In this document: piece by piece, positions 1,343 through 20,542 of the stretch
Numbering within the stretch: the stretch's first letter is position 1
Layout of the letters: each line of letters opens with the position of its first letter
Origin: Eunapius fragilis
Lineage: Eukaryota; Porifera; Demospongiae; Spongillida; Spongillidae
Assembly: GCA_963681505.1 (NCBI GenBank)
Contig: OY811987.1
Span: forward strand, 4,508,978-4,572,977
DNA length: 64,000 bases
Reading direction: 5' to 3'
The notes under the pieces: model-generated
The model's input: only the letters and a program-made list of their open reading frames with translations
Told to the model about the DNA's origin: nothing
Database searches by the model: none
Made by a program: the position numbers and the translations under genes

Positions 1343-1382
1343 ACCGCTTGGAAGTTAGCACCACATTCCTCAGCACCACATT
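1343..1382 (+). repeat. Left terminal inverted repeat of the MULE-like element
   Basis: These 40 bp pair with 20,503-20,542 in inverted orientation with about three mismatches. Each arm also holds two internal copies of a CACCACATT-like motif. The 9-bp target duplication is at 1,334-1,342. Confidence 0.85.
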
Positions 1383-1652
1383 CCAATTAATTTGTAATGT
1401 GATTAAGATGCGGCCTGACGATAATCATTAATGCGGCCAACATTAATCGCGGCCAGAACGTTCAGGTACATGTAGCTAGCTAGCTTGCGCAGAAGGAAAA
1501 CAGCCTACTTACCAGTTCACGACACGGCCTGTAATATGAGCCGGGCTTCCACATATGGACTGGAATCACGGTACTTTTTGTGTCCAAGGCGCCTGGCTAA
1601 CCCTACCAAGTTGCACAGAAATGAGACTTTTTATTGTACAGGTGAACCCGAC

Positions 1653-2335
1653 CATCTGATGAGGTCTGTCTCACGTATCATTAAAATGGCCCCTCCCCCT
1701 TGAGAACCATGGCCATGTCACACATGTGAGAGTGAGTTTACCCCACTGTCTGACCAAGGTAAGCAATGTTCTGGTGATCCTGCACCACCAGAGCATCTGA
1801 TGAGGTCTGTCTCACATTTCTGAGCATGTGTCATTAAAATGGCCCCTCCCCCTTGAGAACCATGGCCATGTCACACATGTGAAAGTGAGTTTGCCCTACT
1901 GTCTGACCAAGGTAAGCAATGTTCTGGTGATCCTGCACCACCAGAGCATCTGATGAGGTCTGTCTCACATTTCTGAACATGTGTCATTAAAATGGCCCCT
2001 CCCCCTTGAGAACCATGGCCATGTCACACATGTGAGAGTGAGTTTACCCCACTGTCTGACCAAGGTAAGCGATGTTCTGGTGATCCTGCACCACCAGAGC
2101 ATCTGATGAGGTCAGTCTCACATTTCAGAACATGTGTGATTAAAATGGCCCCTTCCCCTTGAGAACCATGGCCATGTCACACATGTGAGAGAGAGTTTAC
2201 CCCACTGTCTGACCAAGGTAAGCGATGTTCTGGTGATCCTGCACCACCAGAGCATCTGATGAGGTTTGTCTCACATTTCAGAACATGTGTCATTAAAATG
2301 GCCCCTCCCCCTTGAGGACCATGGTTATGTCACAA
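1653..2335. repeat. 153-bp tandem repeat, about 4.4 units
   Basis: The motif CATCTGATGAGGT recurs at 1,653, 1,794, 1,947, 2,100 and 2,253. The first spacing is 141 bp and the later ones exactly 153 bp. Units share blocks such as ATTAAAATGGCCCCTCCCCC and ACCATGGCCATGTCACACATG with few changes. The array lies close to the left end of the MULE-like element. It is probably non-coding. Confidence 0.9.
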
Positions 2336-2590
2336 GTCTTAGAGGTTAAAGGGAGTTTTAGAGTGTCTTCACTTCAAGCAATGTTCTGCCTGTGTGCATC
2401 TTTTTTCTAAGCATTTCACTTATTCACAAAACAGTAATGCTCTTAAATCTGCATAGGTAGTTTTTGGTTCAAAACGCATGTTTTTGCTTCATCCCAGGTC
2501 AATCTATAAGCTTCCATAATGACACCAGTGATTATCTATTAAGTGAACAGGAAAAAATTTTTTAAGCCAAAATTGATTAGTATTACTTAC

Positions 2591-5500
2591 TTCAGGCCAT
2601 ACGATAAATTTATTGACTTCAGAAAGTGTCATGGATGCATTCTTACCCACATCATCCTGAATGCCCATAAGGTACAGCTCAATCTCATGTACCTAGTATA
2701 GTATGTGTCAGTGAGTAGTACATATATAGTATTAAACTTTAATTTAACTCACCATATCACTGCATGTTTCTAGAGGCCAATATGGATTTTCTTTTCTTAA
2801 CGTTTTGATATATGGGATGTGATTTTTAAACATTGACATCTGTCTACCAGTTATAAAGCATCGTATTAGTGGCTGTAAAGTGAAAGAAAAGTATATTTAC
2901 ATGGATCTAAGCATGCATGCATGCATGCTCTAAGTACCTCCATCTTCTTCACCACTTGTCGTATTGATCTTCTTGTAAATGGTGATTCACTTCATTTGTG
3001 ATGAGTATTGGAGCTAAAGCTAAGAAACAATTGCACACATTTTCTCATTACCTTTCTTTCCTCTTCAGAAGATGATGTGGGAAACTTCTGATATAGTGGT
3101 CTCGTCCCCACTTCAGGGCAGTGAGGTCATCAGGGTCAGGACCAGGATTTTCGAAGTCAGGAACCAAAAAGTCATCAGAATGAATATCAGAATTCAAAGA
3201 AATAGGGCTTCCAATTTCGATGTCGTCATCATCGTCATCACCATCTACTTCATTCACACTATGACATTCAGTCACTCCTGAAAAAGTTTACAACTATACA
3301 CATGTATTTACACGACACAACTGGGTGTGTTTCACCTTGAAGTGCATCATCATCTGCTTTCTGCAGTGGATAAAGTGCACCAACGGACAATTCAAATGCA
3401 ATCTGTTTTCTGAAGCAACTCATCATTTTCTGTGGATAAGCTTCTATTATGCCTAGTGCTTAGTGTTTTATATCCTACTTGTGTGAATACGCAGTCCTGG
3501 CTTTCCACTTGCAATCTTGCTGCCTGTATAATATTATGCATGGTTAAGAATGCTTTCATAGAGTGTTGAAATCAAAACTTACAAGACACACACAAACTCC
3601 ACAGTCATATGAATTGGTTTGCCTTGGTGAATTGCTGGCCCACATCATTGGAAAATCCCTTATTAGAGTACATTACAACTCCATGCAAGGCACTGAATAC
3701 TATTGAATCAGAATACTTCCAGTCTAAATGACTGAGGTGTAACTTCGTTCTATGTTGCATTTCATTGCAAAGGTACAGCCTATATAGCATAGAAGTGTTT
3801 TACTGACTTGTACATTAAGAATTTTGTGCCACTAGCTTACCAAATCCAGTTTACAGCATCATCATCAGAACAGTGCATTGAATCAAAGCTTTGAATGAAT
3901 TGAGCTTGTGGATGGACTACCTAGTATTTTATCATCAGGTTTTATCACCTTTTGAACTCTGGTACAAACTGAAGTTTACCAGTAGACTCCAATGATTTGG
4001 TTTGTGTACAGGAAAGAACAGTTTCTGGTAGCTGCATACATCCTCACCCTAGAGTCAAAAATGCATTCTCATAAGCCATATTGTAGTTTCATGCATGTGA
4101 TTCACTTTTGAGTGCCTTCTGACTGATAGGTAGCCTCGCGCTTTGAACAGGGGAATAAATGTTGGGTCAAAGACCTTAATTCTTTTCCCATTCTGTTGTA
4201 AGAATGATAAGATGTAACTTTAATAATATGATTAAGCAAACCTTAGTAGCAGCCTCTTGCAATAGTTCCATGTATGCAGAAATGATCTACATGGGTTTTC
4301 ATAGAATTTTTCTGATGAGGTTAATACCATACCTTTGAGTCAAGTTGATCGTCAAACAGTAGTTGTTGTAAGGCATTCTTTTCAAGTTGGAACACTTTGT
4401 TTGGTACTGGAACTTTGTTGTATAACTTTTTGAAAACAGTCGTGGTGCATGTAAATCTGAAAAGCATTTTCCTAAGTACCTCAGCTTCAATACTTGATGG
4501 TAGGCCGCTGTAAATCTGGTTTAGGCATTCAAGGATACAAGTAAATAAAAAACATTCTCTATGAGAAAGTTGGTGGCATATAGGATTTGAAGGCAATGGT
4601 GGTGTAAAAAGGAAGGAAACAAGGGTCTAATAATAAGGGAAAATGGAATAGTCCAATATTTAGCACACGAACAACATACTATATCCTACATATAGAAATG
4701 TGCTAAATATAGGACTATTCCATTTTCCCTTATTATTAGACCCTTGTTTCCTTCCTTTTTACACCACCATTGCCTTCAAATCCTATATGCCACCAACTTT
4801 CTCATAGAGAATGTTTTTTATTTACTTGTTTCATGGATTTTTATTCATACCCGATTATGAGCCGTATAGCATGTTAAGTAATCCATCTTGATATGAGAGG
4901 GAGGTTGTAAAGGTACGACATACCTTTGAGTGACCTTAACTCTTTCGCCGAGCGAGATGCACGTTCAGGACTATGGCAATATCGCTGTCTTCTGCTCGAT
5001 ACCTTGCACGTCGAGAGGTCCGTTCCTTTTCAGGATCTGAGGGGGCTTTAAGGGGCGGCCGAAACAGAAGAGAGGTTATTAATTGTCGCCTCAGCGCGAT
5101 CGAACCCACGAACGCATTTTGTATCGGGCCAGACTGAAGCAGACAGCACCCTCCCCCCCCCCCCCCCCCCCCCCCCCCCCCCTTCCTACAGTCTACTAAT
5201 CGCATCTCGATACCTTGCGCGTCGAGAGGTCCGTTTCTTTTCAGGCTCTGCTCGATATTTTTCACGTTGAGAGGCCCGCTTCTTTTCAGGCTCTGCTTTG
5301 TAGTTCCGCTCGGGCTGAATCTAATACGTCGACTCTAGTTTTGAGGTACTATGCTCGTCATCTTTTCCTGACGTGAAGGCATTTTGAAAAAAAAAAAACA
5401 ACTTCACTAAGTTACAAAGAGCGTCAAACTTACAACGATCGAATAACAAGAACGATTATAGTACGCACGTGCACGTTGTTTAAAATACATAATCGCCACA

Positions 5501-20346: not shown

Positions 20347-20359
20347 GGGGAAAGTCCCC
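20347..20359. promoter_or_regulatory. Palindromic kappaB-like site
   Basis: GGGGAAAGTCCCC (GGGGACTTTCCCC on the other strand) is a textbook NF-kappaB consensus. It lies just downstream of the minus-strand TATA box. The role is inferred from the consensus only. Confidence 0.4.
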
Positions 20360-20370
20360 GAGCAGTCTAG

Positions 20371-20381
20371 CGCCTTTTATA
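20371..20381 (-). promoter_or_regulatory. Minus-strand TATA promoter, twin of the one at 16,165
   Basis: The minus strand reads TATAAAAGGCGC then TAGACTGCTC, matching the plus-strand module at 16,165-16,186 in 19 of 22 positions. Both are preceded by TAAAGGAGAAG and followed by an AAAT…ATGGCG-type start (here ATG at 20,329). Confidence 0.6.
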
Positions 20382-20502
20382 GCGGGTTCTGCGCATCGGT
20401 TCGCGCAGCGCAATCGTAACTATTTACGTGGCAACTTCTCCTTTAAGAAGCGCTCGTTTCGGACGCCCGCCGCTTGAGGAATGTTAAACTTATTCATGCT
20501 TA

Positions 20503-20542
20503 AATGTGGTGCTGAGGAATGTGGGGCTAACTTCCACACGGT
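20503..20542 (-). repeat. Right terminal inverted repeat of the MULE-like element
   Basis: This is the inverted partner of 1,343-1,382. It is followed at 20,543-20,551 by the same 9 bp, GTATTATTT, that precede the left arm. Confidence 0.85.

Follow-up and report, generated by a model that had tools for sequence, protein, structure and literature searches.

A recently active family of very large MULE/foldback-like DNA transposons in the sponge Eunapius fragilis with predicted ubiquitin- and SUMO-protease modules

Ubiquitin- and SUMO-protease domains are known in unrelated transposons, namely Mutator, Ginger1 and Helitrons. In the passages of PMC2836005 available to us, Ulp1 domains are described in Mutator transposons of hydra and lancelet, a PHD finger accompanies Ulp1 in a Ginger1 element, a figure legend refers to an alignment in which Ginger1 and Mutator transposases are compared in their Ulp1 and PHD domains, and a Trichomonas protein combines a C19 domain with transposase_11. 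The same passages suggest, with no test, that such proteases serve transposition or repair. In plants, Vandal KIU elements carry VANC anti-silencing genes with Ulp1, which, according to the excerpt of PMC13317346 consulted, read non-coding motifs and let related elements escape silencing. Judged from these excerpts, the KIU genes (PMC13317346) and the protease suggestion made for Ginger (PMC2836005) may be the nearest printed parallels for the mechanism proposed below. Here we describe an element at positions 1343–20542 of a 64,000-nucleotide stretch of Eunapius fragilis DNA (the window; contig OY811987.1, in our numbering G000:C17:4508978-4572977), where it is inserted into a Gypsy element. 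We found that it belongs to a real, multi-copy, recently active family of very large DNA transposons, and its best reading is that of a transposon like MULEs (Mutator-like elements) and foldback elements that would encode its own deubiquitinase and deSUMOylase. At least six families of this one genome combine both kinds of protease, a PHD finger and a transposase in a single conserved coding block.

The element is bounded by 40-bp terminal inverted repeats at 1343–1382 and 20503–20542 (the latter within the right terminal 100 bp, 20443–20542; forward-strand coordinates), which agree at 37 of 40 positions (92.5% identity). The left end at 1343 starts with ACCGCTTGGAAGTTAGCACC, and the inverse of this sequence ends at 20542. 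Directly outside both ends stands a perfect 9-bp target duplication, GTATTATTT, at 1334–1342 and 20543–20551. Inverted ends with a perfect duplication inside Gypsy had been proposed in the preliminary description of this DNA and are confirmed here. Three Gypsy copies elsewhere in the genome (L050–L052, 250 bp each, the three fetched) match both flanks with a single GTATTATTT and without the element, and because they show this empty site, one insertion event accounts for both ends; the possibility that the two ends came from different insertions had been raised, and the empty site fits a single one. The 160-bp left flank, which belongs to the host Gypsy, was 100% identical in 17 of 40 scored matches, the window included. 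The identical long terminal repeats (LTRs) of the host had been taken to bound the age of the insertion. They are indeed identical (746–874 and 24804–24932), but this LTR-like direct repeat is only 129 bp long and dates the insertion little, and dating by LTRs was therefore rejected.

The genome searched comprises 218.9 Mb in 24 contigs. Twelve elements were read: the window copy, six others of the window type (C3a, C1, C3b, C18, C4 and C9), a sister copy (C17b) and four members of another family (C5d, C7, C5c and C4b). Four further families, L029–L032, were read in part, their ends lying outside the fetched stretches apart from an end-like stretch, resembling the 40-bp terminus, inside L032. 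The six families compared are the window type, C5d and L029 to L032. Window-type copies are 98–99% identical in the body, and the body of C17b is 97% identical to that of the window. A search with the left 128 bp of the element returned 82 candidate places, of which 40 were scored; 17 of these, the window included, were 100% identical, in agreement with the recent movement claimed earlier. The eleven elements with two ends differ in length (7.9–25.9 kb), in part through array size and missing parts; the left end of C9 was not found within the 19.8 kb fetched. A perfect 9-bp duplication flanks eight of the eleven (window, C3b, C18, C17b, C5d, C7, C5c and C4b), that of C1 measures 8 bp, and none flanks C3a or C4. 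The suggested search for termini with 9-bp duplications thus recovered a multi-copy family.

The coding blocks occupy the minus strand, and all six families keep them in one order, which in the window runs from 12406 to 2504: N-domain, PHD finger, DDE-like transposase, USP (C19), ULP1 (C48) and tail. The tblastx signal of L029 against the other families fell almost wholly on matching strands. The N-domain exon (12158–12406) is 72% identical to that of the L031 family and 38% to that of C17b. Predicted PHD exons follow at 11123–11265 and 11329–11671, with a 24-bp coding minisatellite at 11432–11898 that encodes the acidic eight-residue repeat DGVDQGPS and numbers 9.5–19.5 units in seven copies. 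The main transposase exon (9293–10538) holds candidate D (CDATGT), D (IIDRS) and CxxH (CTSH) motifs, and the predicted downstream exons comprise 8706–9182, 8624–8660, 8382–8573 with the candidate catalytic E (TAGTIEAWN), and a basic exon at 8222–8337. USP exons were predicted at 7446–7572, 7256–7380, 7099–7226, 6999–7027, 6834–6945, 6610–6765, 6424–6575, 6264–6367 and 6173–6214; ULP1 exons at 4106–4192, 3980–4048, 3841–3920, 3672–3779, 3583–3634, 3479–3523 and 3336–3429; and exons of the C-terminal tail, conserved in six families, at 3052–3277, 2938–2989, 2753–2872 and 2504–2692. An exon at 9,293–10,548 had been singled out in the preliminary description; it is coding, and it proved to be a minus-strand block within a conserved coding region that extends much further. 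The main exon matched 105 stretches of the genome at 31–100% identity, those free of stops and covering at least 388 residues at 53–100%. CDATGT, IDRS, C(T/K)SH and TIE(A/G)WN are conserved in six models and may contain the catalytic residues. Between families, the ratio of nonsynonymous to synonymous differences per site (pN/pS) was 0.27–0.65 in all modules, with pS mostly 0.66–1.03, near saturation.

Pfam was searched with the models of the window, L029, L030 and C5d, four of the six families, and all four matched PF00443 UCH, the USP domain (E values 2.3e-15 to 5.3e-19, the latter for the window), PF02902 Peptidase_C48, the ULP1 domain (1.4e-12 to 1.4e-16; window 1.4e-13) and PHD (5.8e-8 to 5.1e-5; window 2.2e-7 with PF00628), C5d reaching 23.7 bits in the last, just under the curated 24. 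Against PDB sequences, a five-family ULP1 profile came closest to SENP2/SENP1 (best E 8.7e-29; SENP8 only 0.007), and a five-family USP profile to USP12, 46, 21 and 2 (best E 1.4e-14, USP12). L032 was left out of both alignments as its model looked faulty, and its DNA was inspected instead. All five aligned families have the ULP1 residues H, D, Q and C without variation, and the active-site Cys box is also present in the DNA of L032, which makes six of six. The USP Cys, ND pair and CxxC pair are likewise invariant in the five, and the GH box is found in four, missing from the L029 model, which is doubtful there. The two enzymes appear capable of stripping ubiquitin and SUMO from proteins, a hint that the element may unlock or repair the chromatin around it. 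The extra coding modules recur, as expected of copies with the same cargo: all nine coding markers were found in 11 of the 16 sequences examined. Of the others, one ULP1 exon is missing from C1, both ULP1 and tail from C7, and the tail from C5c; L032 has no N-domain marker, which would fall beyond the stretch fetched. C4b (G000:C4:9450205-9458108; 7.9 kb, perfect 9-bp duplication) keeps N-domain, USP, ULP1 and tail and is without the PHD and transposase markers; it may have been moved by the transposase of another copy, or may have lost its own later.

Two different tandem arrays had been noted in the window, and both were recovered. The left one, subterminal at 1646–2334 (array repeat 1678–2334, forward strand), has a 153-bp unit repeated about 4.3 times, which holds a 32–34-bp core; the right one, at 12966–15955, has a 173-bp unit repeated 17.4 times and numbers 5.5 to 53.5 units in single-array copies. 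Units flanking the gene measure 153 bp in the window and C17b, 163 bp in C5d, 165 bp in L029 and 163 bp in L030. In C17b, L029 and L030 the same unit stands inverted on both sides of the gene, a foldback-like arrangement, and in C17b it does so at both ends of the element. The two arrays of the window copy are unrelated to each other and show no foldback symmetry. No flanking array of this kind was seen in the L031 and L032 stretches; in L032 two copies of a 149-bp unit lie within the gene region. The left terminal module of the window (1343–1655) is 98.7–99.4% identical over 315 alignment columns to C5d, C7, C5c and C4b, and these shared 313–315 bp stop where the array begins. Identity to the window's transposase is only about 53–57% in C5d, C7 and C5c, and C4b has no transposase. 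In the N-domain, synonymous divergence between the window and L031 is low (pS 0.49, against 0.82 in the transposase), and the N-domain of C17b is closest to that of C5d. The window type is, as judged from these comparisons, a mosaic of other families in its left end, body and N-domain, and the mosaic ends show end exchange between families whose transposases are only 53–57% identical.

Taken together, we consider it reasonably probable that the element represents a large cut-and-paste transposon family with 9-bp duplications, the fuller copies of which would encode, in a single gene with many introns or in a compact cluster on one strand, the series N-domain, PHD, DDE-like transposase, USP, ULP1/SENP and tail; it would cut its own ends and use its arrays and proteases against silencing or for repair. 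In such a mechanism, the transposase would cut at the inverted ends, and the arrays, whose 153–173-bp units are near the nucleosome repeat, would serve as docking sites for the element's own protein. The PHD finger and the two proteases may act at the arrays by stripping ubiquitin and SUMO from chromatin or repair proteins, as a result of which the element would escape silencing or have its breaks repaired. The conserved block in at least six families, together with window-type copies that are 98–99% identical, makes a role of the proteases testable.

How much of the 19.2 kb belongs to the family can be told from the related copies, relative to which two segments are private to the window. The first (4538–6040), probably within an intron, is absent from all seven related copies, of which C1 also lacks the adjoining 3982–4537. 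The site of the second (approximately 16148–20442; 4.3 kb) is read straight through by the six window-type copies; TTAA stands at each joint of this insertion, whose ends mirror each other (AGGAGAAG and CTTCTCCT), and the last 64–69 bp of the insertion recur at 94–100% identity in 19 of 40 scored matches (161 candidates in the right-end search). Since about 5.8 of the 19.2 kb consists of these two insertions, the element proper measures approximately 13.4 kb, and since the right-hand gene-like region is missing from the window-type copies, it is a different, nested sequence; the right 4.3 kb was rejected as cargo of the element. The preliminary description had regarded all 19.2 kb as one transposon with several genes that moved recently as a unit. 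Of this, the matched ends and the recent spread stand, but the whole 19.2 kb as the element's cargo is not supported. That a 19.2-kb unit with right-hand cargo genes jumped into Gypsy as a whole would agree with the ends and duplications, which do bound 19.2 kb in the window copy, and the two inserts may have arrived before or after the jump; the absence of both inserts from six of six window-type copies, and of the 1.5-kb one also from C17b, nevertheless renders this very improbable. The larger insertion also holds a perfect 175-bp tandem duplication (19263–19612), and a hairpin with 139-bp arms (4529–4667 and 4699–4837; 97% complementary) spans the left edge of the smaller one. Several further observations weigh against the protease-carrying transposon that we favor. 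Its anti-silencing or repair role is one that we infer from the domains present. The one L032 copy read has no USP Cys box in its DNA (approximately 5200–5420, minus strand), which leaves this residue in five of six families and suggests that the USP of that copy is probably dead. Among copies of the young family, pN/pS reaches about 1 or exceeds it in some parts, values based on few changes. When read as the window is, four copies carry lesions: new stops interrupt the transposase, ULP1 and tail of C18, the USP of C1 contains a stop and a frameshift, C17b is frameshifted in USP and has a tail stop, and C3a likewise has a tail stop, tail stops being ones that may reflect modelling of the last exon; C3b, C4 and C9 show neither new stops nor frameshifts in the codons compared. 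The 32–34-bp array core (TGGCCCCTCCCCCTTGAGAACCATGGCCATGTCA in the window) is common to the units of window/C17b, C5d and L029 beyond 100 shuffles per pair, and is absent from the L030 unit and from the window's 173-bp unit; an unlinked pair (the 175-bp unit of the nested insertion and the 149-bp unit of L032) passed the same cut, so that single-pair core matches are to be taken with care. The gene models came from our own splice-aware exon-chaining script, which used the same conservation signal in all families and allowed only GT/AG introns, so that the splice sites lend no independent support. With costly start codons it returned one gene of 1,582–1,891 amino acids in 31–33 exons in all six families, and one chain of 1,794 amino acids in 30 exons for C3a, a window-type copy without the 1.5-kb insert; with cheap start codons, C3a and five of the six families split, the latter into three to six genes that scored 32–75 points better (of approximately 5,400–6,300), and C5d remained one gene. 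Such slightly better scores would suit separate genes, in which transposase, USP and ULP1 are independent transcription units and the proteases are passengers kept by chance, as would C4b with its missing transposase and L032, in which the USP Cys box is gone and the transposase and ULP1 markers are still present. On the other hand, the module order is the same in six families despite near-saturated synonymous sites, the active-site residues are mostly kept, and in our reading of the alignment of six models no conserved start codon heads the transposase or USP module. Intron phase is also conserved at several module joints (after the main transposase exon in all six families), in models that share one signal and are not independent. 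We therefore regard separate genes as possible, with a probability well short of even.

The superfamily of the element is a matter distinct from its gene structure. MULE transposases have the motif order D, D, CxxH, E, which the candidate residues follow here, and the duplications, which are a perfect 9 bp in eight of the eleven copies with two ends, have the size of those of MULE/MuDR (8–10 bp, commonly 9). The element therefore appears MULE-like in duplication size and motif order, neither of which proves MULE membership. Also counting against our reading, no Pfam transposase model matched the transposase, alone or inside the full models of the four families scanned. The genome holds other, separate MULEs, in which PF10551 (MULE) matched 45 stretches, with none at this element. 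Profile–profile alignment with hhalign, made from shallow profiles throughout, gave a probability of 0.4% against 12 of these PF10551 MULEs; for the core alone against 11 MULEs, a local alignment reached 7%, above all 100 column shuffles, over only 16 columns at non-corresponding positions, and the global alignment scored below 87 of 100 shuffles. The earlier assignment to MULEs by sequence was thus not borne out, and the proposed comparison of the exon product with MULE transposase profiles gave no match. An NCBIfam search with the transposase returned one irrelevant weak match (E 0.07), PDB sequences searched with the transposase alignment gave no match, and in IMG/VR 36 stretches fitted a pattern and none was confirmed. 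Matches to NS3 helicase/protease entries in a single-sequence PDB search (best E 0.016) were weak and were rejected as chance. AlphaFold2 models, which likewise tell against our reading, were poor, with a mean predicted local distance difference test (pLDDT) score of 40.7 for the transposase exon (seven sequences) and 42.8 for the core (eight sequences), and for this reason the models were not taken on to a fold search. A diverged MuDR/MULE such as those noted in Repbase for hydra and lancelet, with USP as one further captured domain within the known MULE range, would explain the 9-bp duplications and the order of D, D, CxxH and E, and agrees with the Ulp1 of hydra and lancelet Mutator elements and the alignment of Ulp1 and PHD in Ginger1 and Mutator transposases (PMC2836005, in the passages available). 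The failure of PF10551 and the other Pfam models, and the lack of any sensible hhalign alignment to the genome's own MULEs, speak against it, as does the fact that, in the open-licence PMC literature, represented mostly by titles and abstract starts, no description of USP and ULP1 together in one transposon was found. We give this possibility somewhat less than an even chance. More tentatively, and rather unlikely in our view, the family may be a distinct DNA transposon lineage outside the described superfamilies, in which a one-chain transposase with PHD reader, deubiquitinase and deSUMOylase would be recruited to nucleosome-length subterminal arrays, and ends, arrays and first exon would be swapped like cassettes; an element of such a lineage would carry its own chromatin-unlocking machine.

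The MULE/foldback-like transposon that we favor can be compared with four described groups. Mutator/MuDR elements with Ulp1 (plant Kaonashi/KIU Vandals, and the hydra and lancelet MuDR of Repbase) share with it duplications of about 9 bp (PMC3169594, available in part) and the ULP1 domain, whereas here the transposase is missed by the MULE profile. In the excerpt of PMC13317346 on plant KIU, Ulp1 is placed on the VANC gene, unlike the present ULP1, which is encoded downstream of the transposase in the same orientation and comes with USP and PHD. Foldback elements resemble C17b, L029 and L030 in their inverted tandem arrays on both sides, and FB-NOF is a foldback-type element with 9-bp duplications. 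Tm1 of root-knot nematodes has, in the part of PMC3169594 consulted, composite ends that include tandem motifs, and duplications of mostly 9 bp, like this family; its unit is about 14 bp, however, against 153–165 bp here, and in the window type, which is not symmetrical, the right array is an unrelated one of 173-bp units. Ginger1 is alike in having a transposase with C-terminal Ulp1, in one case also PHD (PMC2836005, same passages), and was rejected, as it has a 4-bp CCGG/CCGT duplication and a Gypsy-type integrase core, in contrast to 9 bp and no rve match in the models scanned. Zisupton/KDZ elements also have short duplications and can carry the gene of an epigenetic enzyme (TET/JBP in fungi); they were rejected because their duplications, in the excerpt of PMC12730594, are of 8 bp (Zisupton) or of 7 bp without inverted repeats (Kyakuja), versus 9 bp here.

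Elsewhere in the window, a direct duplication links 34473–45628 and 54846–64000, with pieces of 403, 1857 and 6900 bp at 97.3–99.3% identity. The two blocks share several minus-strand open frames, and the second copy reaches the window edge. Between them, on the minus strand at 51577–52683, lies a 368-residue open frame that matches the integrase core PF24764 rva_4 with an E value of 1.2e-83.

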